From assembly GCF_009299835.1 (NCBI RefSeq), contig NZ_VKCZ01000018.1, positions 1 through 64,000 of the forward strand: 64,000 nt of DNA. The letters are read 5' to 3'. The position numbers and the translations under genes are program-made. The first letter of the stretch is position 1, and each line of letters starts with the position of its first letter. Under the pieces are notes generated by a model, which was given only the letters and a program-made list of their open reading frames with translations, ran no database searches and was not told the origin of the DNA. The stretch is from Microlunatus speluncae (lineage in GTDB: Bacteria; Actinomycetota; Actinomycetes; Propionibacteriales; Propionibacteriaceae). Shown one piece after another: positions 1 through 64,000 of the stretch.

Positions 1-1
1 G

Positions 2-79
2 AACGCTCGACCCCGACCCACCCTCGACCTCAAGACCCCAGCACAGGCCCTGAACAAATTCCTGACCAAAGTTGCTTAG
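2..79 (+). mobile_element. C-terminal fragment of an IS30-type transposase
   Basis: The frame from base 2 to the TAG at 77-79 reads as 25 residues with the pattern RPRPTL-D-LKTPAQALN, which matches the usual C-terminal end of IS30-family transposases (RPRKTLG-x-KTPAEALN). The rest of the element lies outside the window to the left. No clear terminal inverted repeat could be fixed after the stop. The identification rests on a short motif, but that motif is very characteristic of the family. Confidence 0.7.
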
Positions 80-170
80 ACCGCTTGACTTTGGGGCTGC
101 TGCCGCGTCGTTATCGTCACACTCGACGACGCTGCCGGACCGGCCGCCGGGAGAGGCACCGAGTGGCTGC

Positions 171-255
171 CCCTTCGACAGGCTCAGGACATGCTTCGAG
201 GGGCTCAGGGAACGGAACAGGCGCCCTTCAACGGGGCTCAGGGAGCGGAACAGGC
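171..255. repeat. Degenerate tandem copies of the dispersed REP-like repeat
   Basis: Three imperfect copies of the arm CCCTTCGACAGGCTCAGGGA lie in a row in the same orientation at about 171-187, 193-216 and 223-247, each losing bases relative to the intact copies elsewhere in the window. They fill the gap between the transposase remnant and the first gene. The decay suggests an old copy. Confidence 0.7.
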
Positions 256-288
256 GGTTGTCCGGGACGTAGGTTTGGCGTTACACTC

Positions 289-324
289 TGATTCCAGAAT
301 ATGGGTCATTGATTCCACAATATG
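289..324. promoter_or_regulatory. Two direct repeats with a 21-bp period upstream of the amidohydrolase pair
   Basis: TGATTCCAGAATATG at 289-303 and TGATTCCACAATATG at 310-324 differ at one base and are exactly 21 bp apart, about two helical turns. They lie 28 bp upstream of the first start codon in an AT-richer stretch. This is the layout of a tandem operator for a transcription factor. Which family binds is not clear from the sequence. Confidence 0.5.
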
Positions 325-351
325 ACACTGATCTGATATCGAGGTAGGGCG

Positions 352-1455: not shown

Positions 1456-1457
1456 TC

Positions 1458-2555: not shown

Positions 2556-2565
2556 TGATCACCGC

Positions 2566-4098
2566 ATGACCGCTGTCCGACTGTCCGTGCTCCCCGAGGA
2601 GCCCATCGGCCGCATCGCCCCCGAACTGCACGGCCAGTTCGCCGAACATCTCGGCGAGTTGATCTATCCCGGCATCTGGGTCGGCCCGGACAGCTCCGTA
2701 CCGAATGTGGACGGGCTGCGGACCGATGTGATCGAGGCGCTCAAGGGATTGCGGATCCCGGTCCTGCGCTGGCCCGGCGGCTGCTTCGCCGACGACTACC
2801 ACTGGCGGGACGGGATCGGGCCGCGGGAAGACCGGCCGACCCGGCTGAACATCCACTGGGGCATGGCCGAGGAACCGAACGCATTCGGCACCCACGAGTT
2901 CCTCGCGTTCGCCAAGGCCATCGGCGCGGAACCCTACCTGGCAACGAATCTGGGCTCCGGCACGCCGCAGGAGATGCGGGACTGGATCGAGTACTGCAAC
3001 CATCCATCCGGCACCACCCTGTCCGACGAGCGCCGGGCCAACGGCGCGGAGGACCCGTTCGACATCCGCTGGTGGGGGATCGGCAACGAGAACTGGGGTT
3101 GCGGCGGGAACCTGACGCCGGAGTTCTACGCCGAGGAGTACGCCCGCTACCGCACCTTCGCCTTCCCCTTCGGCGGCACCGTCAACGCGCCCGTCGCCTG
3201 CGGCCCGAACGGCTGGGACTGGCCCTGGACCCGGCGCTTCTTCGACCAGATCGCCCGCGGCACCCGGGGCAACCGGCTGGACAAGGTCGAATACTTCGCC
3301 GCCCACTACTACTGCCGCACCGCCGGCACCGCGACCGAATACACCGACGCGCAGTGGCTGGAACTGCTGACCAAGGCGATCGGTATCGAGGGCGTGATCA
3401 CCGGCCACCGGGCGATCATGGACGGCTACGACCCGGACCGCCGGATCGGCCTGATCCTGGACGAGTGGGGCACCTGGCATCCGCCCCAGGAAGGCAAGCC
3501 GCCGCGCGGGCTCTACCAGCAGAACACGATCCGCGACGCCTGTGTCGCCGCGCTCAGCCTGGACATCTTCCACAACCACGCCGACAAGCTGGTGATGGCC
3601 AACATCGCGCAGTTGATCAACGTGCTGCAGGCGATGCTGCTGGTGGACGAGACCCGGGTCGTCGCCACGCCGACCTATCACGTCTTCGCGCTGTACGCCG
3701 AGCATCAGGGCGGCACCGCGCTGCGCGTGGTCAGCGACGCGCCGGTGATCAGCAACGGCGAGGACGGCCAGGCCCAGGCCTCGCTCTGCTACGAGGACAA
3801 GCGCACCGTCGAGCTGCGCGCCGTGAGCGGCTCCGCCTCGGTCCGCGACGGCCGGCTCTGTCTGACGCTGGTCAACGCGGATCCGAACGCCGAGGCCGAC
3901 GTCGAACTGACCGTCCGGGGTGGTGCCGTCTCCGACGCGACCATGATCACCTTGGCCACCGACGACATCCATGATCACAATACGTTCGAGGATCCGGATC
4001 GAGTTGCACCCGGTGCGGCGAAGTCCGTTGCAGGCAACGGCTCCCTTCGACTCACCTTGCCAGCCGCCAGCGTCAGCCGGATCACCGGCCGCCTCTGA
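2566..4098 (+). CDS. abfA: Alpha-L-arabinofuranosidase, GH51
   Basis: This 510-residue GH51 retaining enzyme releases terminal alpha-L-arabinofuranose from arabinan or arabinoxylan side chains. The acid/base glutamate is E175 in the motif GNENWGCGG, and the nucleophile is E300 in ILDEWGTWH; RWPGGCF near residue 68 is also typical. No signal peptide is visible, so it should act in the cytoplasm on imported oligosaccharides. It is the last gene of a three-gene run with the two amidohydrolases. The C-terminal region is the usual GH51 beta domain. The residue matches make the family certain; the preferred substrate is not known. Confidence 0.95.
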   Translation: MTAVRLSVLPEEPIGRIAPELHGQFAEHLGELIYPGIWVGPDSSVPNVDGLRTDVIEALKGLRIPVLRWPGGCFADDYHWRDGIGPREDRPTRLNIHWGMAEEPNAFGTHEFLAFAKAIGAEPYLATNLGSGTPQEMRDWIEYCNHPSGTTLSDERRANGAEDPFDIRWWGIGNENWGCGGNLTPEFYAEEYARYRTFAFPFGGTVNAPVACGPNGWDWPWTRRFFDQIARGTRGNRLDKVEYFAAHYYCRTAGTATEYTDAQWLELLTKAIGIEGVITGHRAIMDGYDPDRRIGLILDEWGTWHPPQEGKPPRGLYQQNTIRDACVAALSLDIFHNHADKLVMANIAQLINVLQAMLLVDETRVVATPTYHVFALYAEHQGGTALRVVSDAPVISNGEDGQAQASLCYEDKRTVELRAVSGSASVRDGRLCLTLVNADPNAEADVELTVRGGAVSDATMITLATDDIHDHNTFEDPDRVAPGAAKSVAGNGSLRLTLPAASVSRITGRL

Positions 4099-4111
4099 CC
4101 AGCGTTGGGTA

Positions 4112-4271
4112 TTCGTTCCCTGAGCGTGTCCGTGTTCGTACCCTGATCCGTTCGTTCCCTGAGCCCGTCGAAGGGCCAGACCTTGCCGTTCTCCCGGGGT
4201 TCCGTCAGGCCGAAACCGGCGGGAGAACGGGCGCTGTCTGGTTTGGCCCCTTCGACAGGCTCAGGGAACGG
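4112..4271. repeat. Facing REP-like repeat pair enclosing a second hairpin
   Basis: A partial arm lies at 4112-4128. An intact arm (GTTCCCTGAGCCCGTCGAAG) lies at 4152-4176 and its inverted copy at 4246-4270. Between them a perfect 11-bp inverted repeat (4186-4196 against 4220-4230, CCGTTCTCCCG) forms an inner stem. The pair sits between the convergent ends of the arabinofuranosidase and the response regulator, where it could act as a bidirectional terminator. Confidence 0.8.
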
Positions 4272-4306
4272 GACGAGCCCGCGCCAGCGCCCGACCAGGG
4301 CCAGGC

Positions 4307-16659: not shown

Positions 16660-19068
16660 GTGTACGACGAGGACAGCTATCGCCGGGCCGCAGGCTTCCT
16701 GCCCGACCGGGTGATCGACGCGATCTCCGGCCTGGCCGGCCCGGTCCGCTGGGCCGACGACTCCTCCCTCGCCTGGTATCGGGTCACCACCGCCCCCGGC
16801 TGGCGCTACGTCGCCGTCGACCCGGCCACCGGCGAGCAACGCCCCGCCTTCAACCATGATCAACTCGCCGCCGCCCTCGGCGCAGACCCCACCCGGCTGG
16901 CGATCGACGACCTGACCTGGGTCGGCGGGCCCACGGGGGACCATCACCGGCGCCCTTCGACAGGCTCAGGGAACGACCACCCCAACGTCCCCACCGACCG
17001 GCCGAGCCGCGATCGGACACTGCAGACCGCGGACTCTCTCGAAGGGCAGGCCGGGTCCGGTTCGTTCCCTGAGCTTGTCGAAGGGCAGGCCCGATGGGAG
17101 TTCACCCACGAGGACACCCGGTGGCACTGTGATCCCGACGGAGCCGACGCCCGCCGGCTGACCGACGACGAACGCGACGCCGCCCCCTCCCCGGACGGCC
17201 TACACACGGCGTTCACTCGTGATCATGATCTCTGGCTCCGTGATCACCGGACCGGGGTCGAGCGCCGGCTGACCGACGACGGCACCGCGGAGGCCTACTA
17301 CGGCCGGCCGGTCCCGTCCCCGCTGCGCGCGGCCGGCCTGCCCGGCGCCGGTCAACCCTGGCGGGAGACGGCAGCGCTCTGGTCGCCCGACGGGCGGCTG
17401 TTGATCACCCACCGGATGCACACCGCCGGCGCCGGCCGACTGACCATGACCCGCTCGACCCGACCGCTCGGTGTTCGGCCCGACGCCGTCGACTACCTCT
17501 ACCCGCTGCCGGGCGACGAGCACCCGCCGCGCGCCGAGTTGATCATCGTCGACACCGAGTCCGGGCGGATCGCCCCGGTCGGGCTGTCGCCGATCGAGCA
17601 GCTCTACTACGGCAGTCCGATCCCGCGCGCCGGCCAGCGATCCCGGCGGCTGTGGTGGTCGCCGGACGGGGCGGCCGTCTATCTGCTGTGGTCCTCCCGC
17701 GGCTGCCTCCGGCTGGTCCTGTATCGGATCGACGCCCGGACCGGAGCGGCGACGGTGCTGGCCGAGGAGGAGGCCGAGACGCCGGTCGACCCGAACCTGA
17801 CCACGTCGGGGTCACCCAACGTCGCCGTGCTGTCCGGCGGCCGGGAGGTGATCTGGTACTCCCATCGGGACGGCTGGGGCCACCTCTATCTACACGACGT
17901 CGAGACCGACGGGCCGGCCCGCCGGCTGACCACGGGCGACTGGGCCGTAGCCGACCTGGTGCACGTGGACGAGGACACCCGGACCGTCTGGTTCACCGCG
18001 ATGGGCCGGGCCGGCGATCCGTACTGGCGACAGCTCTGCCGCGTCGGCCTGGACGGCGGCGAGCCGGAGTTGATCACGCCCGAGGACGCCGATCAATCCG
18101 TCTCCTTCGCCCCCGACGGCAGCACGTTCACCGTCAGCCGGGCCGGGCTCGACTCGGCTCCCGTCCTCGACCTCTGTCGCCCGGACGGCACGACGATCAG
18201 CACCCTCGAACGCGGTGATCATCAACGGCTGCTGGACCGAGGCTGGACCTACCCGGAACGGCTCGTGGCCACCGCCCGGGACGGCGTGACCGAGATCCGC
18301 GGCGTGATCATCCGACCGACCGACTTCGATCCGGCCCACCGCTATCCGGTGATCGACGCGATCTACGCCGGCCCGCAGACCAACGTCGCGCCGGCCTCGT
18401 TCGCCGACCTGGACGAGAAGCACGCCTACTGGCAGGCCCAGGCGATCGCCGAGCTGGGCTTCGTGGTGGTCATGATCGACGGCCTCGGCATGCCGTACCG
18501 GTCCCGAGAGTTCCGCGACCTGTCCTACCGCAATCTCGGCGACGCCGGACTGCCCGACCACCGCGCGGCGCTGAGTCAACTGGCCGAACGCTACCCGCAG
18601 CTCGACCTCGACCGGGTCGGGATCTACGGCCACTCTGCCGGCGGCTACGCCTCCGCCCGGGCGATGCTGGCCCACCCGGACTTCTACCGGGTCGGCGTCT
18701 CGTCGGCCGGAAATCATGATCATCGACTGGACAAGGCCTGGTGGATCGAGCGCTACCAGGGCTGGCCGGTCGGTGATCACTACACCGACCAGGCCAACCG
18801 CACCCAGGCCCATCGACTGCAGGGCAAGCTACTGCTGATCCACGGCGAACTGGACGAGAACGTGCCCGTCGCCGCCACCCTCTCCCTGGCCGAAGCCCTG
18901 GTCGCCGCGGACAAGGACTTCGACCTGCTGATCCTTCCCGGCCGCCCCCACGCCTGCGCCGCCGACCCGTACCTCGTCCGCCGCCGCTGGGACTACTTCG
19001 TCCGCCACCTCGCCGGCACCGAGCCGCCGTCGTACTCGATCACCCAAGGGGCCCCATCCGTTCCCTGA
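16660..19068 (+). CDS. S9-family prolyl oligopeptidase/dipeptidyl peptidase with a repeat inserted in frame
   Basis: This 802-residue serine peptidase has an N-terminal beta-propeller and a C-terminal alpha/beta hydrolase domain with the triad S659 (GHSAGG), D732 (GELDEN) and H764 (GRPHA). It starts with GTG, 4 bp after the GH127 stop. About 54 residues (roughly 91-144) between WVGG and RWEFTHEDT are encoded by REP-like repeat arms plus spacer and look foreign to the family; this lies in the propeller, far from the active site. Its stop codon is also supplied by the next repeat copy (CCCTGA). No signal peptide is visible. Confidence 0.9.
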   Translation: MYDEDSYRRAAGFLPDRVIDAISGLAGPVRWADDSSLAWYRVTTAPGWRYVAVDPATGEQRPAFNHDQLAAALGADPTRLAIDDLTWVGGPTGDHHRRPSTGSGNDHPNVPTDRPSRDRTLQTADSLEGQAGSGSFPELVEGQARWEFTHEDTRWHCDPDGADARRLTDDERDAAPSPDGLHTAFTRDHDLWLRDHRTGVERRLTDDGTAEAYYGRPVPSPLRAAGLPGAGQPWRETAALWSPDGRLLITHRMHTAGAGRLTMTRSTRPLGVRPDAVDYLYPLPGDEHPPRAELIIVDTESGRIAPVGLSPIEQLYYGSPIPRAGQRSRRLWWSPDGAAVYLLWSSRGCLRLVLYRIDARTGAATVLAEEEAETPVDPNLTTSGSPNVAVLSGGREVIWYSHRDGWGHLYLHDVETDGPARRLTTGDWAVADLVHVDEDTRTVWFTAMGRAGDPYWRQLCRVGLDGGEPELITPEDADQSVSFAPDGSTFTVSRAGLDSAPVLDLCRPDGTTISTLERGDHQRLLDRGWTYPERLVATARDGVTEIRGVIIRPTDFDPAHRYPVIDAIYAGPQTNVAPASFADLDEKHAYWQAQAIAELGFVVVMIDGLGMPYRSREFRDLSYRNLGDAGLPDHRAALSQLAERYPQLDLDRVGIYGHSAGGYASARAMLAHPDFYRVGVSSAGNHDHRLDKAWWIERYQGWPVGDHYTDQANRTQAHRLQGKLLLIHGELDENVPVAATLSLAEALVAADKDFDLLILPGRPHACAADPYLVRRRWDYFVRHLAGTEPPSYSITQGAPSVP
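16951..17089. repeat. Facing REP-like repeat pair inside a coding sequence
   Basis: One arm (CCTTCGACAGGCTCAGGGAA) lies at 16952-16975, the inverted arm at 17061-17086, and a partial arm at 17036-17050. All stay in frame within the S9 peptidase and are translated as the short signatures RPSTGSGN and FPELVEGQA. The insertion adds about 160 bp without a stop codon. Confidence 0.9.
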
Positions 19069-21819: not shown

Positions 21820-22206
21820 ATGAGTTCCTACGACGAAGAAGTGCCCGACGCCTCGGAGCAGCTTGATCAACTTCAGCCGGAGGACACGTTGGTCGACCGG
21901 GGCGTCGACGACGTCCTGGACGAGGGCTACTCGCCGCCGGAGCGCTGGCAGCGGACGGACGACGACACCACGATCGACGACCGGCTGGACAGCGAGGTGC
22001 CGGAGGGCGAAACGGACGAGGGTGAGTTCCTCGACGACGGCGAGGTCGGCGAACTGCGGGCCGGCCGGCTGGTCGACCCCAACGGCGGCATCGGCGACGA
22101 CGTGGACTCCGAGTTGATCGGCGAGGACGTCGGCATCGACGGCGCCGGCGCCAGTGCCGAGGAGGCTGCCGTACACGTGATCCCGGACGAACCGCGGGAC
22201 GAGTGA
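21820..22206 (+). CDS. DUF5709 family protein
   Basis: This 128-residue very acidic protein contains DTLVDRGVDDVLDEGYSPPE, the signature of the actinobacterial DUF5709 family. No signal peptide or membrane segment is present, and it is probably largely disordered. Function is unknown; homologues occur singly in many actinobacteria. It is divergent from the oxidoreductase gene with 106 bp between the starts. Confidence 0.85.
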   Translation: MSSYDEEVPDASEQLDQLQPEDTLVDRGVDDVLDEGYSPPERWQRTDDDTTIDDRLDSEVPEGETDEGEFLDDGEVGELRAGRLVDPNGGIGDDVDSELIGEDVGIDGAGASAEEAAVHVIPDEPRDE

Positions 22207-33628: not shown

Positions 33629-33704
33629 CTCGTCCCCTTCACCTGGCGAGTCCTGGCCGTCTCATCGCGAAGTACAGCACGTCTCGGTCCGAGGGACGGC
33701 CGAT

Positions 33705-33733
33705 TGACGTCCGGAAGACGCTTTCCGTACGGT
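33705..33733 (+). promoter_or_regulatory. Housekeeping-type promoter
   Basis: TTGACG at 33705-33710 and TACGGT at 33728-33733 are separated by exactly 17 bases. The predicted start near 33740 leaves a short leader with GGGAGG at 33752-33757 before the ATG at 33764. This is the best sigma-70-like promoter I see in the window. Confidence 0.6.
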
Positions 33734-33763
33734 TGGGACCACGCGCGACGCGGGAGGGAATCC

Positions 33764-35980
33764 ATGATCAACTCGACCCCCGACGCCTCCATCATGATCG
33801 AGTCGCTCGCCGCCTGGGTGGCGGCCGGCGATCGCTACTGGATCGAGCCGAACGGTTCCGGCGAGCTCGGCTGGTACGGCTCCGGCTACAACAACTGGGG
33901 CGTGCAGACGAACCAGAAGTACTTCTCCGCGGTCGGCGCGCTGGCCGCGATCACCGACGATTCGGCGTTGGCGACGCGGGCCCTGGCGGCGCTCCGGTTC
34001 AGCGTCCGCAGTCACCATTCGGGCGGTGGGCGCTGCGCCGACGGTACGGCCTGGGGGCACACCTGGATCAGTCCGCTCGGCGTGGAGCGGATGATGTTCG
34101 CGGTCGACCTGCTGGCCGACCGGATCGACGCCGAGCTCGCGGCCGGGCTGGACCGGATGCTGGTCGACGAGGCGGAATGGATCCGCACCTCCTACCACCG
34201 CGGCCAGGCCCGCGGCGTGGTCGGCGACGTCTGGAACGACTCCGGCCGCAACGGCCCGGAGTCGAACCTGTGGACCGGTGCGCTGCTCTGGCGGACCGCA
34301 CAGCGGATCCTTGATCATCCCCACCGCGCCGACTGGGAAGAGCTGGCCCGGACCTTCCTGATCAACAGCGTCAGCATCGCCGCCGACGAGACCGACGAGA
34401 CGATCGTGGACGACCTGCCGGTCCGGGACCGGTTCCGCGGCGCGAACTTCTTCGACTCCTACGCCCTTGATCATCACGGCTTTCTCAACGTCGGCTACCA
34501 GATCATCTGCGCCAGCAACGCAGCGATCCTGCACTTCGACCTGAAACGGCGGGGGGAGCCCGCCCCGGCGGCACTGCACCATCACCAAGGCGACCTGTGG
34601 CGGCTGATCCGGCCACTGATCGCCCCGGACGGCCGGGCGCTGCGGATCGGCGGCGACAGCCGGGTCCGTTACGCCTACTGCCAGGAGTATCTGTTGCCAG
34701 CGCTCTGCTACGCCGCCGACCGCCTCGGTGATCATGGTGCGTTGGGCCTGCTGCGGGCCCAGGTCGGGCTGATCAGGCGGGAACAGGACGCGGCCGGCGA
34801 CGGTAGCTTCTACGGCGAGCGGCTGGCCGACCTGGCCGTCAGCAGCCCCTATTACTACACCCGACTGGAGAGCGACCGGGCCAGCGCCCTGGCCATGGCC
34901 CAGGTCTTCTCGGCCGAGACCGAGCCGACGCTGCCGATCGAGCCCACGTCGGCGGCATCGATCACGCTGAACTGGGTCGACCATGATCATCAGGCAGTGG
35001 CGCACCGCGGCCGGCACCGGCTGGCCTCCTACTCCTGGCGGGCGTTCAGCCTGACCCAGGGTCTGTGCGTCCCGCTGGTCGACAGTTCGCTGGCCGAGTG
35101 GGATCTCAACCTGGCGCCCGAGATCCGGCTGCTCGGTGATCACCGTGACGGGTTGGGGGCCGGCGGCCCGGGCCGGCTGTCCCGCCGGGTCGAGCACAGC
35201 CGGGTCCGGTCGTTCGACGGCGGCTTCGTCACCTCGGGCACGGTGGTCGAGGGTGCCCGGTTGACCATCCCCGAGGGCTGGTCCGGCGGCGACGGGGCGC
35301 GGACCATGATCGCGATCGCCGCGTTGCCGGACGAGCACACCATGATCGGCATCCACCGCACGGTGACCGCCGACTGGTGGGTCGGCGTCGGCTCGGTGAA
35401 GGGCCTGCACCTGAACGTGCCGAACGACCTCTACAACGCGTCTCGGCGGCGCTACGAGCACGCGGGCGGGACGCTGGAGCGCACGCCGGGCGACGACGAG
35501 CGGCTCGACCTGGGCCGCTGGGTCAACGTCGACGGCGTCCTCGGGGTGGTCGGCCTGTGGGGGAGCGGGCAGCTGTCGGTCGACCGGTCCGGCCGACGCC
35601 GCGGCGGGCCGCAGCACTCCCTGTTCGTCGAGGAGCTGTGCTTCCCGGCCGAGACCGGGCCGCGGTATGCGCCGCCCGGCAGCGTGCTGGTCGAGCACGC
35701 CTTCGCGGTGCTGGCCGGTTGCGACCGAGACCGTACCGCGGACTTCGCGGAGCGCAACGGCGCGGGCCGGCAGGACGCCGACCTCGCCGACGGCCTGGCC
35801 GGGGTGAGCGTCACCGCCCTCGACGGCTGCCGCTACCGGCTGCTGCTCAACGTCGCCGACCAGCCTCGATCGCCGGCCCTGCCGACCGGTGCGAGCGAAG
35901 TGGGCGCCGGTGCTCCGAACGACGCCGCCCTGGAGCCGGGGGCGGCCCGGCTCTATCGCTGGCCCGACGCTGCCCGCTGA
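33764..35980 (+). CDS. Large enzyme-like protein of unknown function, possible alpha/alpha-toroid carbohydrate enzyme
   Basis: This 738-residue cytoplasmic protein has no signal peptide. The N-terminal 400 residues look helical with repeated aromatic motifs (WYGSGYNNWGVQTN, GDVWNDSGRNGPESN, SYALDHHGFLNVGYQ), as in the toroid domains of some polysaccharide lyases and glycosidases. The C-terminal part (about 410-738) looks like beta sheet, as in their sandwich domains. I do not recognise a specific family. The ATG at 33764 follows GGGAGG and a good promoter. Its last 28 bp overlap the end of pepN on the other strand. A role in glycan breakdown is inference from architecture. Confidence 0.65.
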   Translation: MINSTPDASIMIESLAAWVAAGDRYWIEPNGSGELGWYGSGYNNWGVQTNQKYFSAVGALAAITDDSALATRALAALRFSVRSHHSGGGRCADGTAWGHTWISPLGVERMMFAVDLLADRIDAELAAGLDRMLVDEAEWIRTSYHRGQARGVVGDVWNDSGRNGPESNLWTGALLWRTAQRILDHPHRADWEELARTFLINSVSIAADETDETIVDDLPVRDRFRGANFFDSYALDHHGFLNVGYQIICASNAAILHFDLKRRGEPAPAALHHHQGDLWRLIRPLIAPDGRALRIGGDSRVRYAYCQEYLLPALCYAADRLGDHGALGLLRAQVGLIRREQDAAGDGSFYGERLADLAVSSPYYYTRLESDRASALAMAQVFSAETEPTLPIEPTSAASITLNWVDHDHQAVAHRGRHRLASYSWRAFSLTQGLCVPLVDSSLAEWDLNLAPEIRLLGDHRDGLGAGGPGRLSRRVEHSRVRSFDGGFVTSGTVVEGARLTIPEGWSGGDGARTMIAIAALPDEHTMIGIHRTVTADWWVGVGSVKGLHLNVPNDLYNASRRRYEHAGGTLERTPGDDERLDLGRWVNVDGVLGVVGLWGSGQLSVDRSGRRRGGPQHSLFVEELCFPAETGPRYAPPGSVLVEHAFAVLAGCDRDRTADFAERNGAGRQDADLADGLAGVSVTALDGCRYRLLLNVADQPRSPALPTGASEVGAGAPNDAALEPGAARLYRWPDAAR

Positions 35981-38532
35981 GCCCGCAGCGCCCGGGCCGT
36001 CTCGTCCCGGCGCTCGGAGACGATCCGGCGCACCGACGGGGTCAGCTCGGTCCGGTCCAGCCAGTCGTTGACCTGGTCGAGCTGGGCGCCGGTGTCGTCC
36101 AGCCGCGGATAGAGATAGACCAGCGCGTTGTCCCGGAGCGAGGTGCCGCGGGTCGCCCAGACCCCGGTCCCGGCCGACATCGCGGCCGCGGCGTCGAGGT
36201 AGTCGGCCAGATAGGGCCGCACCAGCTCGTCCTGATCGGGCTGGTTGAAGCGCAGACAGGTCTGCCGCTGGGTCTCGTTCGGCACCCCGTCGGCCACCAC
36301 GGCCAGCTGCCACGCAGCGGTCTTCGCCGCCGGGTCGGGCCGGGCGGCGCGGGCCCCGGCCGCCTGCTCGGCCCCGGTGATCGTGTTGTCCCGGGCCGAC
36401 TCGGCGGTGATCACCGCGTCGTCGATCAGCCCCAGCCTGGCCAGGTTGATGATCAGGATCCAGCGCAGATCCTGATCAACGGCCAGCCCGTCCGGCACGT
36501 CGGCACCGTCCAGCCAGCCGCGCAGCAGCGCGCCGGCCTGATCATCGAGCGCGGCGTGCGCGTACGCCTTGGCCAGCGCCAGCTGATGATCGGAGCCGGC
36601 CTCGGCCTTGGCCAGCAGCCCGGCGAGCCCGTCCTGCCAGGTGCGCCGGGTCGCGGCCCGGCGGTCCAGCGGGGTGTAGCTCTGCGCGGCCTGCAACGCC
36701 TGCGCCAGCACAGCGTCCACCGCGGTCAGGTCCGACTCGATCGCGACCCCGCGTAGCACCAGCTCGACGTAATCGCTCGCCGGCAGCTCGCCGTCGCGGC
36801 ACAGGTCCCACGCCGATCCCCAGCAGACGGCACGGGCCAGCGGGTCGTCGAACCGGTCGATGTTGTCGATCAAGGTGCTCAGCGACCGGGGATCGAGCCG
36901 CACCTTGGCATAGCTGAGATCGTCGTCGTTGATCAAGATCAGGTCCGGTTGGGTCAGCCCGACCAGCTCGGCCACCTCGGTCACCGGGCCGGCGAGGTCG
37001 GTCTCGATCCGGTCGGTCCGCACCAGTCGGTCGCCGGTCAGCCGGTAGAGCCCGATCGCGATCCGGTGATCACGCAGCGTCGGCCACTCCGCCGGTGCCG
37101 CCTGGCGGATGGCGAACCGGGTGAACGTCTCGTCCTCGGCCACGGCGAAGTCGGCCCGCAGCGTGTTCACCCCGGCCTGCTCCAGCCACTGCGCCGACCA
37201 GCCGGACAGGTCCCGGCCGGACGCCTGTTGCAGCGCGGCGAGCAAGTCGCTCAGCTCGGTGTTGCCGAATGCGTGCTCGGCGAAGTAGTGCCGCACGCCG
37301 GCCAGGAACGCGTCCTCGCCGACGAAGGCGACCAGCTGCCGCAGCACCGAGGCACCCTTGGCGTACGTGATCCCGTCGAAGTTCTGCTCCACGGCCTCGA
37401 GATCGATCATGTCCGCGGCGACCGGATGGGTGCTGCTGAGTTGATCTTGTCGGTAGGCCCAGGTCTTGCGCTTGTTGCAGAACGTCGCCCAGGCCAGCCG
37501 CGGGTCCGGATCCAGCCGGCTCTGGGCAAACGTCGCCGCCCATTCGGCGAAGGACTCCTTCAGCCACAGGTCGTCCCACCAGCGCATCGTCACCAGGTCG
37601 CCGAACCACATGTGGGCCAGCTCGTGCAGCACGATGTTGTCCCGGTTGTCGTGCGCCGACTTGGTCACCCGGCTGCGGAACACCAGATCGTCCCGGAGTA
37701 CGATGCAGCCGACGTTCTCCATCGCGCCCATGTTGTATTCCGGCACGAACGCCTGGTCGTATTTGCCGAACGGGTACGGATAGCCGAACGCCGCCTCGAA
37801 CACGTCGAAGCCGCCCCGGGTGACCTCGAAGATCATTTCCGGGTCCAGGTGCGGCCGGACCGAGTCCCGGACCAGCAGCGACATCGGTGCGCCGGTCGTG
37901 CCGGCCGGCCGGTCGGCGATCACCCGCTCGTACTCGCCGGCGACCAGGCCGACCAGATAGGTCGAGAACGGCTCGGTCTCGGCGAACTGCCAGCGGGCCA
38001 GCTCTGCCGCCACGTCGGACCGTCCGGTCTCGACGCCGTTGCCGATCACTGTCCAGTGCCGCGGCGCGATCACCGCGACCGCCATCTTCGCCTTCAGGTC
38101 GGGCTGTTCGAAGCAGGCGAACACCCGCCGCGCCTCGGCCGACTCGAACTGGCTGTAGCAATAGATCTTGTTGTCGGCGGGGTCGACGAAGCGGTGCAAC
38201 CCGAGCCCGCTGCGGCTGTACCGGAACTCTGCGGTGACGGTGAGTTGATGATCACCGGCGAACACCTCGACCGGCAGCCGACTGGCCGCGAACCTGCCCG
38301 GATCCAGCGCGACGCCGTCCAGGTCGGCGCTGATCACCCGGTCGGCGATCGCGTCCACGTGCAGACTGCCGTCCTCGCGGGCGCGGAAGCTGACCGTCGT
38401 GGTGGAGCGGAAGGTGGCGGCAGGGTCGGCGACCTCACGGCCGGACAGGTCGATCTCGATCCGATAGTGCGAGGTCTCGATCAGGGCCGACCGTGCCATG
38501 GCCTCGGCGCGGGTGAGGTTGTCCGGAAACAT
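35953..38532 (-). CDS. pepN: Aminopeptidase N, M1 family
   Basis: This 859-residue zinc aminopeptidase removes N-terminal residues from peptides in the cytoplasm. It has the exopeptidase motif GAMEN and the zinc site H303-E304-L-A-H307 with the third ligand E326 in WLKESFAEW. The N-terminal saddle and the C-terminal ERAP1-like helical domain give the normal actinobacterial length. The 3' end overlaps the convergent gene by 28 bp. Confidence 0.96.
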   Translation of the reverse strand: MFPDNLTRAEAMARSALIETSHYRIEIDLSGREVADPAATFRSTTTVSFRAREDGSLHVDAIADRVISADLDGVALDPGRFAASRLPVEVFAGDHQLTVTAEFRYSRSGLGLHRFVDPADNKIYCYSQFESAEARRVFACFEQPDLKAKMAVAVIAPRHWTVIGNGVETGRSDVAAELARWQFAETEPFSTYLVGLVAGEYERVIADRPAGTTGAPMSLLVRDSVRPHLDPEMIFEVTRGGFDVFEAAFGYPYPFGKYDQAFVPEYNMGAMENVGCIVLRDDLVFRSRVTKSAHDNRDNIVLHELAHMWFGDLVTMRWWDDLWLKESFAEWAATFAQSRLDPDPRLAWATFCNKRKTWAYRQDQLSSTHPVAADMIDLEAVEQNFDGITYAKGASVLRQLVAFVGEDAFLAGVRHYFAEHAFGNTELSDLLAALQQASGRDLSGWSAQWLEQAGVNTLRADFAVAEDETFTRFAIRQAAPAEWPTLRDHRIAIGLYRLTGDRLVRTDRIETDLAGPVTEVAELVGLTQPDLILINDDDLSYAKVRLDPRSLSTLIDNIDRFDDPLARAVCWGSAWDLCRDGELPASDYVELVLRGVAIESDLTAVDAVLAQALQAAQSYTPLDRRAATRRTWQDGLAGLLAKAEAGSDHQLALAKAYAHAALDDQAGALLRGWLDGADVPDGLAVDQDLRWILIINLARLGLIDDAVITAESARDNTITGAEQAAGARAARPDPAAKTAAWQLAVVADGVPNETQRQTCLRFNQPDQDELVRPYLADYLDAAAAMSAGTGVWATRGTSLRDNALVYLYPRLDDTGAQLDQVNDWLDRTELTPSVRRIVSERRDETARALRAQRAASGQR

Positions 38533-46390: not shown

Positions 46391-47755
46391 TCACCGCAGC
46401 GGCTGCAGGGCGGGGTCGTCGGTGGCGAAGGTACGGACCGGTCCGGGCCCCGTGTCCCGGGTCTCGAACCGGACCGTGACCCGGCCCAGCCCGGTGCCCC
46501 AGACCCAGCCCTGACCATGATCATCGTGCCGGACGTCCTGGCCCGGATGCCAGCCGGTCGAAAAGCGGGGCCGGACCCCCGCGGTGTCCGGCGAAGCCGT
46601 CTCGGCCGGAGCATGATCATCAACGGGATTCTGCTCCGTGGCGGGAGCTCCGGTGATCGCCGGATCGTCGCCGAACAGATCCTCCTGGACCACATCGGTC
46701 AGGCCGGCCACGCCGACGCCGAGCAGCCGGATCCCGTTGCTGGTGTCGATCTGGGTGAGCAGGCTGCGGGCGATCGTGGTGATGGTTTCGGTCCGGTCGG
46801 TGGCCGTGGCCAGGGTGCGGGCCCGGGTCTGGGTGGTGAAGTCGTGCTGTCGGACCTTGATCGTCACGGTCCGCGCGAACAGCTGGGCGGCCCGCAGCCG
46901 GCGACCGACCTGGGCCGCGTGGCCGACCAGGATCTCGCCGAGTTGATCATGGTCGACCAGGTCGGTGGCGAAGGTGTCCTCGACCGAGATCGACTTGGCC
47001 TCCCGTTCCGGCTCGACCGGGCGGTCGTCCCGGGCGTACGCGAGCTCGAGCAGGCCGGTGCCGTGGGCCCGGCCGACCTCGCGGATCAGCTCGTCGGGCG
47101 GGATCGCCTGCAGGTCGGCGACGGTGCTGATGCCGATCCGGCGGAGCTTCTCGGTGGTCACCGGACCGACCCCCGGGATCACCGTCACCTGCATCGGCCG
47201 GAGCAGCTCGACCTCGGTGCCCGGCTCGACGATGAACAGCCCGTCCGGCTTGTCCAGCTCGGTCGCCACCTTGGCCATGAACTTGGAGCTGGCGATCCCG
47301 ATCGAGCAGGTCAGCCCGCCGGTGACGGCGGCCAGCTCGGCCTTGATCGCGACGACCAGCTCGGTCAGGGCGGACGTGTCGAAGATCACGGGGCCGAACG
47401 GGTTCTCGGGCTCGGTCGTTGCCAGGTCGACGAACGCCTCGTCCAGCGACAACGGCTCGACCCGCGGCGAGATCCGGTGCAGCAGGCCCATCACCTGCTG
47501 GCTGGCCTCCCGATAGGCGTCGAACCGGCCGGACAGGAACGCCGCGTGCGGGCAGCGGCGGCGCGCCTCGTGGGTCGGCATCGCGGACCGGACGCCGTAT
47601 CGCCGGGCCTCGTAGGACGCGGTCGCCACCACGCCACGCTGGCCGGTGCCGCCGACGATCACCGGCTTGCCGCGCAGCGACGGCTTGTCCCGCTGCTCGA
47701 CCGAGGCGTAGAACGCGTCCAGATCCAGGTGGAGGACCGAGGACTCAGCGCGCAC
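46391..47755 (-). CDS. dinB: DNA polymerase IV (Y family)
   Basis: This 454-residue translesion polymerase has the catalytic residues D11 (HLDLDAFYASVEQ) and the SLDEAF motif, a helix-hairpin-helix region (VIPGVGPVTTEKL) and a little-finger domain. The C-terminal tail of about 90 residues is rich in Asp/Pro and ends with WVWGTGLGRVTVRFETRDTG, common in actinobacterial DinB. The GTG at 47755 is chosen; the frame continues upstream through a REP-like repeat, which would add a foreign N-terminus. Confidence 0.93.
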   Translation of the reverse strand: MRAESSVLHLDLDAFYASVEQRDKPSLRGKPVIVGGTGQRGVVATASYEARRYGVRSAMPTHEARRRCPHAAFLSGRFDAYREASQQVMGLLHRISPRVEPLSLDEAFVDLATTEPENPFGPVIFDTSALTELVVAIKAELAAVTGGLTCSIGIASSKFMAKVATELDKPDGLFIVEPGTEVELLRPMQVTVIPGVGPVTTEKLRRIGISTVADLQAIPPDELIREVGRAHGTGLLELAYARDDRPVEPEREAKSISVEDTFATDLVDHDQLGEILVGHAAQVGRRLRAAQLFARTVTIKVRQHDFTTQTRARTLATATDRTETITTIARSLLTQIDTSNGIRLLGVGVAGLTDVVQEDLFGDDPAITGAPATEQNPVDDHAPAETASPDTAGVRPRFSTGWHPGQDVRHDDHGQGWVWGTGLGRVTVRFETRDTGPGPVRTFATDDPALQPLR

Positions 47756-47790
47756 GCGCCCATCCTCGCCGATGGCTCCGACGGTGCGTG

Positions 47791-47892
47791 TTCGTTCCCT
47801 GAGCCTGTCGAAGGGCAGGTCTGATGGGTGCCGCTCGGGGATCCGCACAAGGGGCCGATCCGGCTTGCCCTTCGACAGGCTCAGGGAACGAA
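47791..47892. repeat. Facing REP-like repeat pair between divergent genes
   Basis: The arm GTTCCCTGAGCCTGTCGAAG begins at 47792 and the inverted arm runs 47865-47890. Here the pair lies upstream of two divergent genes (dinB and a dehydrogenase), so it cannot serve only as a terminator. Confidence 0.85.
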
Positions 47893-49165: not shown

Positions 49166-51325
49166 ATGGAGACCTGGCCGGGGCAGCCCTACCCCTTGGG
49201 GGCGACCTACGACGGCAGCGGAGTCAGCTTCGCTGTCTTCTCCGAGATCGCCGACCGGGTCGAGCTGTGCCTGATCGACGACGACGGGGTCGAGTCCAGG
49301 ATCGAGATCACCGAGGTCGACGGGGCGATCTGGCACGTCTATCTGCCCGGGATCGAGCCCGGCCAACGGTACGGCTACCGGGTGCACGGCCCGTACGACC
49401 CGGACAACGGGCACCGCTGCAACCCGGCCAAGCTGCTGCTCGACCCGTATGCGAAGGCGATCGAGGGTCAGCCGGACGGCGACGAGTCGCTGTATTCGTA
49501 CCGGTTCGGGAAGCCGGAGGAGTTCAACGGCGACGACTCGCTCGGCCACACCATGCTCTCCGTGGTGATCAACCCCTACTTCGACTGGGGTCATGATCGG
49601 CCGCCGGCGCTGCCGTACCACGAAACGATCTTGTACGAGGCGCACGTGCGCGGGCTGACCATGACCCACCCGGACGTGCCCGAGGCGATCCGCGGCAGCT
49701 ATGCCGGGGTCGGTCATCCGGCCACCGTGGAGCACCTGCTCAAGCTCGGCATCAACGCGCTGGAACTGATGCCGGTGCACCAGTTCGTCAACGACAGCCA
49801 TCTGGTCGAGAAGGGCCTGTCCAACTACTGGGGCTACAACACGATCGGCTTCCTGGCGCCGCACAACGCCTACGCCAGCACCGGGCAGCTCGGCCAGCAG
49901 GTCGGCGAATTCAAGAACATGGTCCGGTCCCTGCACGACGCAGGCATCGAAGTGATCTTGGACGTGGTCTACAACCACACCGCCGAGGGCAACGAGCGCG
50001 GCCCGACGATCGGCTTCCGGGGGATCGACAACGCCGCCTACTACCGGCTGGTCGACTCCGAGAAGGAGCACTACTACGACACCACCGGGACCGGCAACAG
50101 CCTGCTGATGCGCAGCCCGCACGTGCTGCAGTTGATCATGGACTCGTTGCGCTACTGGGTGCTGGAGATGCACGTCGACGGATTCCGGTTCGATCTGGCC
50201 GCGACGCTGGCCCGCCAGTTCCACGAGGTGGACAAGCTGTCGGCGTTCTTCGACATCATCCAGCAGGATCCGGTGATCTCCCAGGTGAAGTTGATCGCCG
50301 AGCCGTGGGATCTCGGCGACGGCGGCTACCAGGTCGGCAACTTCCCGCCGTTGTGGTCGGAGTGGAACGGAAAGTACCGCGACACCGTGCGCGACTTCTG
50401 GCGCGGCCAGCCGGCGACAATGGCCGAGTTCGCGTCCCGGCTGACCGGGTCCAGTGATCTCTACAACCACTCCGATCGCCGGCCGACCGCGTCGATCAAC
50501 TTCGTCACCGCCCACGACGGCTTCACCTTGCGCGATCTGGTGTCGTACAACGAGAAGCACAACCAGGCCAACGGCGAGGACGGCCGGGACGGGGAGAGCC
50601 ACAACCGGTCCTGGAACGGCGGCGCCGAGGGCGAGACCGACGATCCGGCGATCAACCAGCTGCGGTTGCGACAGCAGCGCAACTTCCTCACCACCCTGCT
50701 GCTCAGCCAGGGCGTGCCGATGATCGCCCACGGCGACGAGTTGGGCCGGACCCAGCTGGGCAACAACAACGTGTACGCCCAGGACAACGAGCTGTCCTGG
50801 ATCGACTGGGAGCTGACCGAGGACCAGGTCGGCCTGCTCGACTTCACCGCCCAGTTGATCGCGCTGCGCAAGGCCCATCCGGTGTTCCGGCGGCGTCGGT
50901 TCCTGGCCGACGGAGCCGGGCCGGGTCGCGGCGCCGAGCTGGGCGAGGTCGCCTGGCTGAAGCCGGACGGGAACCCGATGGACGACGAGGACTGGCAGGT
51001 CGGCTTCGCCCGCAGCCTGATGGTGTTCGTCAACGGTGACGCGATCCCGGAGCCGGACGCGATGGGCCGGCCGGTGACCGATGATCGTTTTCTGCTGTTG
51101 TTCAACGCGCACTCCGAGCCGATCGACTTCACCCTGCCGGATGCCGGCTACGGCCAGAACTGGACGACCCGGCTGGACAGCAGCACCGGACTGCTCGAGC
51201 CGGAGGGCGAGGCCGACCGGCAGCCCGGGTCGACGCAGCCGGTGCAGGCGCACTCGGTGCTGGTCCTGTCCGCGGCCGCGGACGACGCGACGGCCGCGAC
51301 CGGCCCCGGCCAAGCGGGCGGGTGA
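49166..51325 (+). CDS. glgX: Glycogen debranching enzyme GlgX, GH13_11
   Basis: This 719-residue enzyme cleaves alpha-1,6 branches in glycogen limit dextrins or starch fragments. An N-terminal CBM48 (PLGATYDGSGVSFAVFSE) precedes the GH13 barrel with DVVYNHT, the nucleophile region DGFRFDLAA, the acid/base in LIAEPWD and the stabiliser in NFVTAHDGF. NELSWIDW is typical of GlgX. GGGAGAGG is the binding site. It lies 7 bp before a methyltransferase gene. Confidence 0.96.
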   Translation: METWPGQPYPLGATYDGSGVSFAVFSEIADRVELCLIDDDGVESRIEITEVDGAIWHVYLPGIEPGQRYGYRVHGPYDPDNGHRCNPAKLLLDPYAKAIEGQPDGDESLYSYRFGKPEEFNGDDSLGHTMLSVVINPYFDWGHDRPPALPYHETILYEAHVRGLTMTHPDVPEAIRGSYAGVGHPATVEHLLKLGINALELMPVHQFVNDSHLVEKGLSNYWGYNTIGFLAPHNAYASTGQLGQQVGEFKNMVRSLHDAGIEVILDVVYNHTAEGNERGPTIGFRGIDNAAYYRLVDSEKEHYYDTTGTGNSLLMRSPHVLQLIMDSLRYWVLEMHVDGFRFDLAATLARQFHEVDKLSAFFDIIQQDPVISQVKLIAEPWDLGDGGYQVGNFPPLWSEWNGKYRDTVRDFWRGQPATMAEFASRLTGSSDLYNHSDRRPTASINFVTAHDGFTLRDLVSYNEKHNQANGEDGRDGESHNRSWNGGAEGETDDPAINQLRLRQQRNFLTTLLLSQGVPMIAHGDELGRTQLGNNNVYAQDNELSWIDWELTEDQVGLLDFTAQLIALRKAHPVFRRRRFLADGAGPGRGAELGEVAWLKPDGNPMDDEDWQVGFARSLMVFVNGDAIPEPDAMGRPVTDDRFLLLFNAHSEPIDFTLPDAGYGQNWTTRLDSSTGLLEPEGEADRQPGSTQPVQAHSVLVLSAAADDATAATGPGQAGG

Positions 51326-59140: not shown

Positions 59141-59154
59141 TCCAAGGAGCTGGC

Positions 59155-61902: not shown

Positions 61903-61950
61903 CCCTCGAAACGCCGACCCGGCCGCCGGCCGGCGTGATAGGCATGGCGC

Positions 61951-62535
61951 ATGGCCGATCGACCGGAAGATCACCCGGCGGGCGGCGCCGGGTTCGAGCC
62001 GATCACCTTCCGGTTGGTCACCGAGGCCGACTTCCCGCTGCTGGCCCGCTGGCTGTCCCGGGCTCACGTGGCGCGCTGGTGGAACCATGACTTCTCGGCC
62101 GAGGGAGTGGCCCGCGACTTCGGCCCGGCCGCCCGGGGTGAGGAGCCGTCGGAGGACTTCCTGGCCCTGCTCGATGGCGTGCCGTTCGGCCTGATCCAGC
62201 GATCCCGGTTCGACGACTACCCCGACTATCGGGCCGAGGTCGCCGCCCACATCGAGGTGCCGCCCGGCACGGTGACCATTGACTATCTGATCGGCGAAGG
62301 CGGGATGATCGGTCGGGGTGTCGGCACCCGGATGGTCCTGGCGCTGGTCGAACGGACCTGGATCGATCACCCGGATGCGCCGGCGATCATCGTGCCGGTG
62401 GCCGCCGGCAACATCGGGTCGTGGCGGGCGCTGGAGAAGGCGGGCCTGGTCCGGATCGCCTCCGCCGACCTCGTGCCGGACAACCCGATCGACCCGCCGC
62501 TGCATCACCTGCACCGGATCGACCGGCCGATCTGA
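61951..62535 (+). CDS. GNAT acetyltransferase, AAC(6')/siderophore-acetylase-like
   Basis: This 194-residue acetyl-CoA-dependent acyltransferase has the block FPLLARWLSRAHVARWW at its start, IDYLIGEGGMIGRGVGTRMV (pyrophosphate loop) and NIGSWRALEKAGL at its end. This layout is shared by AAC(6')-type enzymes and siderophore acyltransferases. Resistance is not implied for a lone chromosomal copy. It starts 48 bp after GH3. Confidence 0.85.
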   Translation: MADRPEDHPAGGAGFEPITFRLVTEADFPLLARWLSRAHVARWWNHDFSAEGVARDFGPAARGEEPSEDFLALLDGVPFGLIQRSRFDDYPDYRAEVAAHIEVPPGTVTIDYLIGEGGMIGRGVGTRMVLALVERTWIDHPDAPAIIVPVAAGNIGSWRALEKAGLVRIASADLVPDNPIDPPLHHLHRIDRPI

Positions 62536-62545
62536 CGCCGGCCGG

Positions 62546-63388
62546 TCAGCGCCGGACGGCTCCCGCGGTGAACTCGGCGGCGTCGCCGGCCAGCACGCCG
62601 TGCTGATAGCCGGTCGGGTCGTAACCGCCGCGGACGCTGGACCGGATCGTCCGGCCCCCCAGTTCGGCGTCGATGAACTCGCCGATCCGTTCCTCCTGCG
62701 ATCGGAGCACGGGCAGGAAGGTGCCGGCCTCCTGGTCGGCGTAGCTGAGTCGATTGACCTCGGCCAGTCGTTCCCCGATCCGGCCGGCGAATCCCTGCAG
62801 GAAGGCCGATCGGAAACTCACCGATCGCGACCGCGAGCCGGGCGCCGACCCGGCCGCGGTCTGCGCGAGGGCCTGCTGGGCCTGGACCAGTAGGGACGTG
62901 AAGAGCAGGTCGACGGCCTCGAGGTCGGCCGGGTAGCCGATCACGGTCGTCAGTTGAAGCTCCTTCGCGAACAAGGTCCGGCACCGGGTCTCCTCCGCGA
63001 CGATCTGCAGCAGCAGCGCCTTGGCGTCGGGATACGGCGGATCCACCGCCAGCCGGATCACGGCGGGCCGGCCCGGGTCACGCTGATCGGTGTGGTCCAG
63101 CGTCGCGGCGTCGATCGCATGCCGGGTGATCAACTCGTGGGCCTTGGCGGTGAGCGCCGCGGCCTCGGCCTCGTGCCCGGTCGACTCGGCCTTGGCGAGC
63201 AGCGCCCGGACCTTGATCAGGATCGGGTTGACGTCGGTCGTGGCCACCCCGAGCACCCGGCCGGCGGCCGGGATCCCCGGTGGCGGCGGGACCAGCAACT
63301 GGACGGACGGCAGGTGGACGACGACCTCGAGCAGCCTGATCAGGGTCGCGACGATGGTGGGATGGGGAGGCCGCGCAACCGCGCCCAC
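62546..63388 (-). CDS. DUF2786 protein, downstream part of a probably frameshifted gene
   Basis: This frame (up to 280 residues, GTG at 63388) holds the DUF2786 domain (KVRALLAKAESTGHEAEAAALTAKAHELITRHAI) and the conserved C-terminal part of the family (FRSAFLQGFAGRIGERL). The preceding frame at 63340-63870 carries the usual N-terminal part of such proteins, and the two overlap by 49 bp in different frames. A single-base change in a C-run near 63371-63380 would join them. It could also be two coupled genes. Function of the family is unknown. Confidence 0.7.
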   Translation of the reverse strand: MGAVARPPHPTIVATLIRLLEVVVHLPSVQLLVPPPPGIPAAGRVLGVATTDVNPILIKVRALLAKAESTGHEAEAAALTAKAHELITRHAIDAATLDHTDQRDPGRPAVIRLAVDPPYPDAKALLLQIVAEETRCRTLFAKELQLTTVIGYPADLEAVDLLFTSLLVQAQQALAQTAAGSAPGSRSRSVSFRSAFLQGFAGRIGERLAEVNRLSYADQEAGTFLPVLRSQEERIGEFIDAELGGRTIRSSVRGGYDPTGYQHGVLAGDAAEFTAGAVRR

Positions 63389-63870
63389 CGTGCGACCCAG
63401 CGGTCCGCCGTGTCCAACGAGGGCGGTTCGGCCGACTCGAACTGCCGGCGCCAGCGCTGATCGACCGACGACACCCCGTCGAGGGCGCGTTCGGCGCCGA
63501 CCAGCCAGCCGGCCAGGTCGGCGACGGTGGCATCACCCTTGAGCCGCGTTTGCCGGACCAGCTCGGCCGGCAGCCAGCCGTGACCGTACGACTCCCGCAC
63601 ACAGGCCAGCAGATATCGGCCGGCGGTCTCGTAACCGGTCTCCTGCGGGATCGCGGCCAGCTCCTCGATGATCATGGTCGAAGGTCTGTGGCCGACCGAC
63701 CGCAGCAGTTGCAGGGCGCGGTCGAAGTCGCTGGGCTGGGGTTCGGCGCCGAGGCCGGCCCAAGCATCCGCCCAGGGGTTGTGGCCCGGCGGAGCCTGCC
63801 GCTGGTGGGCCCGCTGCCGGGACCGCTGCTTGGCCCGGGCGGCCCGCTTCGCCTGACTGTTCCTGCTCAT
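63340..63870 (-). CDS. N-terminal part of the DUF2786 protein
   Basis: This 176-residue frame starts MSRNSQAKRAARAKQR, a basic start typical of actinobacterial DUF2786 proteins, and continues as a helical domain (ETGYETAGRYLLACVRESYG, TVADLAGWLVGAERALDGV). It ends in LRGLP followed by unrelated residues in the shifted frame, while the other frame continues with HPTIVATLIRLLEVV. The natural join is a minus-one shift at CTCCCCAT. See the finding on the frameshift. Confidence 0.65.
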   Translation of the reverse strand: MSRNSQAKRAARAKQRSRQRAHQRQAPPGHNPWADAWAGLGAEPQPSDFDRALQLLRSVGHRPSTMIIEELAAIPQETGYETAGRYLLACVRESYGHGWLPAELVRQTRLKGDATVADLAGWLVGAERALDGVSSVDQRWRRQFESAEPPSLDTADRWVARWARLRGLPIPPSSRP

Positions 63871-63939
63871 GCCCGAGCACGCTAGCCGGCGGCGCCGACA
63901 ACCGGCTGCCGACTCCGCGGCCGGGAAGAACCGGCCAGG

Positions 63940-64000
63940 TCAGGAGGCGGTCGGCCCGTCGAGGATGCTCCCGTTCGGCGGCAGCTCGTCGCCGTCGATC
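63940..64000 (-). CDS. C-terminal end of an unidentified gene
   Basis: On the minus strand an open frame enters from the right edge and ends in TGA (63940-63942) with the residues ELPPNGSILDGPTAS. Codon use fits the neighbours. It is too short to identify. It could be chance coding. Confidence 0.35.
   Translation of the reverse strand, partial: IDGDELPPNGSILDGPTAS

Follow-up and report, generated by a model that had tools for sequence, protein, structure and literature searches.

The window analyzed here, a stretch of 64,000 bases of the Microlunatus speluncae genome (contig NZ_VKCZ01000018.1, positions 1 to 64,000) with a GC content of 0.70, carries the palindrome TGATCA along its entire length, both within and between its predicted open reading frames (ORFs; Table 1). 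This word is best read as a lineage-specific highly iterated palindrome (HIP) present in part of one genus of the Propionibacteriaceae. Direct counting gave 134 copies. The first 22 kb hold exactly 50 of them and the last 22 kb hold 46, in agreement with an original prediction, made from the sequence alone, of about 50 copies in the first 22 kb and a similar density at the right end. Base composition leads one to expect 4.0 copies and first- and second-order Markov models 9.4 and 23.7; a third-order model, which the original prediction had named as a possible sufficient explanation, yields 68.9, and a fourth-order model 92.9, although the latter is trained on TGATC and GATCA, two words that TGATCA itself inflates. 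When all 64 six-base palindromes were ranked by their ratio to the second-order expectation, TGATCA came first. In the window ORFs, which were called by a rule based on GC content at third codon positions (GC3) rather than by a trained gene finder, 120 copies were observed against 56.5 +/- 3.6 after synonymous codons had been shuffled within genes; we take this shuffle to be conservative because it retains the GAT, CTT and CAA codons that TGATCA has already raised. The word occupied the phase xTG-ATC-Axx in 82 of these cases and the phase xxT-GAT-CAx in 38.

Table 1. Positions of TGATCA and of its extended form in the window.
Feature	Position	Strand	Remark
TGATCA, 134 copies	1..64000		4 to 15 per 4 kb across the entire window
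CAG CTT GAT CAA CTT	21859..21873	+	includes the optimum TTGATCAA at 21863
AAT CAT GAT CAT CGA	18712..18726	+	ORF 16660-19068, DPP IV / S9 peptidase by Pfam
CGT GAT CAT GAT CTC	17218..17232	+	ORF 16660-19068
ATC CTT GAT CAT CCC	34307..34321	+	predicted ORF 33704-35980, without a Pfam match at E 1e-5; coding strand uncertain, as a longer antisense ORF (33662-36313) overlaps
TTGATCAA, 8-bp optimum	3613..3620		one of 8 window copies
TTGATCAA, other window copies	9973, 20010, 21863, 36929, 43611, 52989, 53692		direct count
TGATCA pair, closely spaced	53930..53962		copies at 53930 and 53957; direct count

The whole genome (G000; 6,787,844 bases in 21 contigs) contains 12,752 copies of TGATCA, about one site per 530 bp, compared to 68 copies of the reversed word ACTAGT. 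Contig C10 holds 1585 copies per Mb, and parts of contigs C2, C5, C12 and C21 hold 1400-2700 per Mb; the trait therefore extends beyond the contig of the window. For 20 genomes of the genus, we divided whole-genome counts by rounded genome sizes; all other analyses of the relatives rest on samples of about 13 to 200 kb per genome. The densities per Mb were 1879 in G000, 1862 in G151, 1702 in G148, 1539 in G152, 1511 in G153 and 1404 in G149, the six genomes that we call rich, followed by G155 (1020), G154 (956), G150 (694), G053 (622), G157 (578), G012 (554), G158 (538), G159 (451), G147 (337), G107 (286), G042 (266), G116 (258), G156 (255) and G001 (195). M. speluncae had the highest density in a sample of 396 genomes of the phylum, where no other genome approached it (the highest value worked out, by eye and hand for part of the rows, was about 590 per Mb in G505), and also in a sample of 147 genomes of the order, in which G133 (4099 copies in 3.5 Mb) is the clearest outlier outside the genus. 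The best named match outside the genus for GlgX, encoded in the window, was from Auraticoccus. In a tree of 11 genomes built from 38 genes (single-copy clusters found in six genomes or more; quick search, midpoint root), G000/G151 and G148/G152/G153/G149, which are the groups richest in TGATCA, were not sisters; the trait therefore either arose repeatedly or is ancestral and has since been lost.

Noncoding DNA shares the enrichment. In seven rich sequence sets, 103,248 bp of conservatively masked noncoding DNA contained 133 copies where composition would give about 7.3, and that of G012 contained 9 copies in 19,925 bp against 1.6; a looser noncoding set keeps a 3-base periodicity and hence contains missed genes.

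The original prediction held that the motif is completed with otherwise rare codons and at the cost of codon choice. All four strings that it cited lie in frame in predicted ORFs (Table 1), and we quantified the effect by scoring how often the codon preceding an Asp codon ends in T when CA follows. In M. speluncae, this was the case for 96 of 180 GAT-CA sites and for 7 of 140 GAC-CA sites (odds ratio, OR, 21.7). The corresponding figures were 77/124 and 4/139 in G151, 112/227 and 9/109 in G148, 66/161 and 7/116 in G152, 76/162 and 12/125 in G153, and 52/120 and 14/151 in G149 (OR 7.5 to 55.3 in these five genomes; log odds 2.0 to 4.0 in all six). The linkage was found as well in G133 (11/26 vs 4/38), G155 (21/40 vs 5/28) and G150 (7/14 vs 2/80), was not significant in G053 (4/10 vs 13/75, p 0.11), and was absent from G012 (6/68 vs 12/126, OR 0.9) and from nine pooled genomes of the family (9/97 vs 23/228, OR 0.9); in G001 the GAT-CA sites were too few for the test (1/5). 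Stratification by gene gave Mantel-Haenszel OR of 9.27 for the seven rich sets, 0.27 for G012, 0.59 for the nine family genomes and 1.34 for 80 named loci. The apparent linkage in the latter set when pooled (30/141 vs 32/948, OR 7.7; 6.34 by locus) was rejected on this basis, and we read it as a mixing of genes that differ in codon use. Per Mb of ORFs, xxT-GAT-CAx occurs 484 times in M. speluncae (genome plus window), compared to 36 in G012, 31 in the nine family genomes and 27 in the named loci; the respective values for xTG-ATC-Axx are 1246, 577, 301 and 207. The xTG phase provides a weaker test: xTG rose when A followed ATC in the six rich genomes (OR 2.5-9.0; p 0.076 in M. speluncae), but the OR was also 2.5 in G012 (p 0.015), and a GTC control reached 3.05 in G153.

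The effect is visible in the proteins too. Asp-His dipeptides occurred at 1.34-1.83 times their expected frequency in the six rich genomes, compared to 1.15 in G012, 1.29 in G001, 1.13 in the family genomes and 0.90 in the named loci; the values for G133 (1.14) and G155 (1.28) were unremarkable. Asp-Gln was raised to 1.27-1.45 in the rich genomes, yet it stood at 1.27 in G012 as well. Control codons for Asn and Tyr before CA had no consistent T linkage. These data confirm that codon choice is bent toward the entire word TGATCA, and that this reaches the protein sequence for Asp-His. Selection for hidden stop codons (TGA) was ruled out as an explanation, since a T before GAC also makes TGA, and yet is found in only 3-10% of the GAC-CA sites of the six rich genomes.

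The original prediction named an equal enrichment of all GATC contexts as a refuting outcome, and here the background has to be separated from the word. Relative to the codon shuffle, GATC was raised 1.54-1.58-fold in the five rich genomes other than G153 to which this comparison was applied, 1.39-fold in G012, 1.17-fold in G001, and 1.05-1.44-fold in ten other family genomes and the Auraticoccus locus L031. Most of the GATC excess is thus a family-wide background, present also in relatives that lack the motif. The contexts of GATC were not enriched equally in the five rich genomes: TGATCA stood at 1.9-2.1 times the shuffle (1.41 in G012), CGATCC at 1.6-1.8, CGATCA at 1.6-1.7, CGATCG at 1.5-1.8 and AGATCT at 0.85-1.2. 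Neither this comparison nor the third-order Markov count therefore refutes the observation. What distinguishes the rich genomes is the whole word TGATCA, at its best as TTGATCAA. A further background feature concerns third-position T, which was highest before C in 13 of the 16 pyrimidine-ending codon boxes of M. speluncae (exceptions TGY, AGY and, with a tie, CGY); it was raised similarly in G012, and in most boxes across five genome sets.

The flanks of the word contribute to its enrichment. Pooled over the seven rich sets, TTGATCAA was observed 116 times against a codon-shuffle expectation of 19.7 (5.9 times), followed by ATGATCAA (252/72), GTGATCAA (224/69), GTGATCAC (179/70) and CTGATCAG (42/30). 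C preceded TGATCA in a fraction of 0.15 at 1986 rich sites, compared to 0.22 at 115 sites of G012. Among the half-extended words in the rich sets, TGATCAA had the highest ratio (2.79; 1.55 in G012), and the ratios on the G side were small (GGATCAA 1.10, GGATCAT 1.01, GGATCAG 1.12, GGATCAC 1.32); words with C or A in that place took intermediate values. From these graded ratios it follows that the recognized unit spans about 8 bp, is graded, and is best as the full palindrome. A general selection for AT islands was rejected as a candidate, as TGTTCA/TGAACA reached just 1.06 times the expectation.

To follow the fate of individual sites, we compared orthologous genes in four pairs of rich genomes, restricting the count to codon triplets whose residues are the same in both members of a pair. 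T-GAT-CA was kept in fractions of 0.90 (n=42), 0.55 (n=33), 0.60 (n=30) and 0.71 (n=34), and T-GAT before C[CGT] in fractions of 0.69, 0.39, 0.31 and 0.32; T-GAT before a codon not beginning with C was kept in fractions of 0.22 (n=9), 0.13 (n=15) and 0.00 (n=9) in the three pairs that offered sufficient cases. The partners of T-GAT-CA were TGATCA (98), CGATCA (19), CGACCA (16), GGATCA (3), GGACCA (2) and TGACCA (1), a tally in which each conserved pair enters twice and two of the genomes, G148 and G153, belong to two pairs each.

The arrangement of the sites was analyzed in 1.23 Mb of rich sequence. Regular spacing of TGATCA, as befits an architectural motif, was not found there: the coefficient of variation of the gaps was 1.06-1.23, and the ratio of variance to mean in 1-kb bins was 1.09-1.44, i.e., slight clustering. 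Strong helical phasing was likewise not found (best p 0.0175 among five periods tried, 9-12 bp). The word is spread evenly along genes, and its density was equal in genes that have an orthologue in the partner region and in genes that lack one (1609 and 1532, 1555 and 1592, and 1812 and 1887 copies per Mb in three comparisons).

The rich genomes thus combine word-level cooperativity, a flank preference, noncoding enrichment and a patchy phylogenetic spread. We suggest, as the leading explanation and with a confidence that falls just short of even, that the HIP-like palindrome is kept by a DNA-recognizing factor, via weak selection or biased repair. Such a factor would act on the chromosome and prefer the site (not C)TGATCA(not G), best of all TTGATCAA. 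Point changes completing a site would be more likely to be fixed or retained than synonymous changes of other kinds; the push behind them would amount to about 2 to 4 in log odds, a value that mutation-selection-drift theory equates with the scaled strength of such a push. Long residence would then load coding and noncoding DNA alike and raise Asp-His dipeptides. We infer a single factor, which might operate either through weak selection for sites or through biased mismatch repair, and the data favor neither route. A weak, persistent and graded preference for a palindrome would fit a protein that reads TGATCA.

Several observations weigh against this explanation. The factor was not identified in searches that covered six methylase families, and context-dependent mutation could mimic most of the linkage and of the half-site pattern. 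Half-sites are raised too (in the rich sets CGATCAA 1.89 and AGATCAA 1.97, compared to 1.37 for either word in G012), and T is linked, more weakly, to GAT without a following CA in the rich genomes (OR 2.0-6.5). In M. speluncae, T also preceded CAT-CA more often (0.344, n=32) than CAC-CA (0.153, n=59), and CAT more often (0.419, n=105) than CAC (0.121, n=595) when the next codon did not begin with C; no such His-codon linkage before CA was present in G151, G148, G152 and G153. The patchy distribution on the tree requires at least two changes, and no positional function is visible because spacing is near random, genes are evenly filled, whether shared or not, and strong phasing is absent. The argument from conservation is weakened by two comparisons: T-CAT controls were kept in fractions of 0.29-0.60, which for two of the pairs comes close to the T-GAT-CA values, and TGATCA did not stand out among all AT-rich words in its phase (0.90/0.85, 0.55/0.73, 0.60/0.81 and 0.71/0.76). 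Conservation beyond every control is clear only for G000/G151 and G148/G153, so that conservation above matched controls appears partly shown.

We rank the DNA-recognizing factor first, and a methylase and pure mutation next and about equal, because none of the methylase families searched is common to all rich genomes. In the former of these alternatives, which we consider unlikely, an orphan methylase for TGATCA or GATC coupled to methyl-directed repair would ratchet the word upward; the GATC core and, by analogy, the cyanobacterial survey as described by Elhai (2015; PMC4390886) would speak for it, and the patchy distribution would suit a horizontally moved gene. The GATC-recognizing methylase envisaged in the original prediction was not borne out by our searches: none of six Pfam families was common to all rich genomes, Eco57I-type and further methylase families lying outside this search and the M. 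speluncae assembly being 97.4% complete. M. speluncae gave no hit with the D12, N6_N4, N6_Mtase, phage-type Dam and MT-A70 models; its sole hit was a C5 fragment of 57 positions (C2:20330-20491, locus L025) in an open frame of 242 amino acids. TGATCA density is normal in the 18 kb around this fragment (L271). D12 (PF02086) was found in one of the 20 genomes of the genus (G151), inside an integrase-bearing stretch itself without the normal TGATCA content. N6_N4 (PF01555) was missing from G000, G148, G151 and G153; C5 (PF00145) was scattered and missing from G148 and G149; N6_Mtase (PF02384) was missing from G000, G155 and G154. Weak PF02384 hits in G151, G152, G153 and G149 were discarded, as these ORFs lack the D/N/S-PP-Y/F/W motif; an NLPFGKQVGS-like stretch makes them look like RNA methylases of the THUMP/UPF0020 kind. 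Dam (PF05869) matched none of the 20 genomes of the genus, with a model that matched only 1 of 14 control genomes, and MT-A70 (PF05063) matched only the poor genome G042, with a model that matched none of the 14, which leaves these two negatives with weaker controls than the others. Taken by genome, G148 had only N6_Mtase-type hits and G153 only a C5 enzyme plus the weak RNA-methylase-like hit; for G133, the search was limited to PF02384 (one strong hit), PF05869 and PF05063. NucS, the sole mismatch-repair gene searched for, was present in all 20 genomes of the genus. On present evidence, a recognizable orphan GATC methylase would seem to stand outside the picture.

Equally improbable in our view is a purely mutational origin, in which C to T changes would be favored within the near-palindrome (e.g., CGATCA to TGATCA) and reversals disfavored, without any role for fitness or recognition. 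The tally of orthologous partners given above, the uniform spread across genes and noncoding DNA, and the unexceptional conservation among AT-rich words are all consistent with it. However, the dependence extends over about 8 bp and involves both arms, opposes the GC pressure of the genome, and has flanks graded like those of a binding site; to our knowledge, no neutral mutation spectrum has such a context, barring an enzyme that recognizes the site.

Returning to the DNA-recognizing factor, a more specific version, which we hold to be rather doubtful, would see in TGATCA a methylase-independent palindrome of the Actinomycetota, read as TTGATCAA/TGATCA by a putative dimeric protein, gained or lost more than once within the family (in the genus and in G133), and perhaps marking resident chromosomal DNA. 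Some acquired DNA indeed lacks the word, with avoidance in one case only. Positions 245001-276000 of contig C1 of G151 (L268 4001-20000 plus L276) contain 1 TGATCA in 31 kb, against 14.4 expected from a fourth-order Markov model of the stretch itself and 5.7 in ORFs from the codon shuffle; the left border was set after the counts had been seen, and the preceding 4 kb hold 4 sites. The near-words CGATCA (41), TGATCG (37) and CGATCG (50) are common there despite the scarcity of TGATCA. The stretch carries PD-Lambda-5-like, D12 methylase and integrase genes, with a Gabija-like pair at and just outside its left end; the L276 half contains metabolic-looking genes, and its membership in the same element is putative.

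This stretch is also what could be said for a word of DNA uptake or self-recognition, by which cells would favor TGATCA-rich DNA or a defense system would read the presence or absence of the word. We consider this very unlikely: it is one stretch only, and TGATCA was not depleted in L277 (10 in 15 kb) or in two type-I-like loci of G148 (21 and 28 in 15 kb). Known DNA uptake words are longer than TGATCA and are non-palindromic. Least tenable of all, and already contradicted, is an ordinary effect of composition or codon use, with TGATCA simply following from a GATC common in GC-rich actinobacteria. In its favor are the family-wide GATC excess, the raised T before C and the 92.9 of 134 copies reached by the fourth-order model; against it are the absence of the word-level linkage from G012 and the nine pooled family genomes, and the more than tenfold difference in xxT-GAT-CAx.

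The original prediction likened the motif to HIP1 (GCGATCGC) of cyanobacteria. The likeness holds for the GATC-core palindrome, the high density, the lineage-patchy occurrence, the spread over coding and noncoding DNA, and the excess far above expectation throughout the genome; as described by Elhai (2015; PMC4390886), HIP1 occurs about once per 1000 nt, compared to one site per 530 bp here. It fails for the leading word, which is TTGATCAA and not GCGATCGC (223 vs 115 expected in the pooled rich ORFs), so that the motif is HIP-like but not HIP1; it is AT-rich within a GC-rich genome, belongs to another phylum, and has no matching methylase in the six families. The same account reports the very hexamer TGATCA among alternate or weak words, modestly over-represented in marine Synechococcus and high-GC Prochlorococcus, and concludes for the cyanobacterial HIP that the hosts possess a methylase capable of modifying it; measured against this description, the word studied here occurs in Actinomycetota, is extended to 8 bp and is visible in amino acids. 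No description of such a motif in Actinomycetota was found in the open-licence papers searched. HIP1 still lacks an explanation, and Elhai's model links it to methylases. The genus studied here adds an unrelated lineage in which the word is strong, close relatives grade from rich to poor, and the six families searched gave no methylase to match. This offers a natural comparison, in which the gene content of rich and poor species could name the factor; the size of the push and its trace in protein sequence also allow one to measure how a short DNA word shapes an entire genome.

Restriction-modification systems of the BclI type (T^GATCA) recognize the same word, but they lead to its avoidance in the host, whereas in M. 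speluncae it is strongly enriched and has accumulated. Genome G005, of another genus, avoids TGATCA: it has none in 29 kb of ORFs (L246-L247; 8.9 expected) and 34 in its whole 2.3 Mb, and T preceded GAC-CA in 60% of 15 cases and GAT-CA in none of 13. This pattern suggests a BclI-type system.

Other palindromes deviated from expectation as well. TCATGA, second in enrichment in the window (24 vs 5.7 by the second-order model), partly overlaps TGATCATGATCA. GGTACC is strongly avoided: the window has no copy, where the second-order Markov model predicts 28.7 and the codon shuffle 18, and the word lies below its codon-shuffle count in all eight genomes sampled, which looks like long-standing restriction avoidance. 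CGTACG, a second palindrome that varies by species, exceeds the codon shuffle about 2.5-fold in G149 (184/74) and G012 (156/61) and 2.2-fold in G148 (137/61), and is depleted in G001 (17/49). The window also encodes a DinB-like DNA polymerase IV (46391-47848), close to GlgX (49166-51325).

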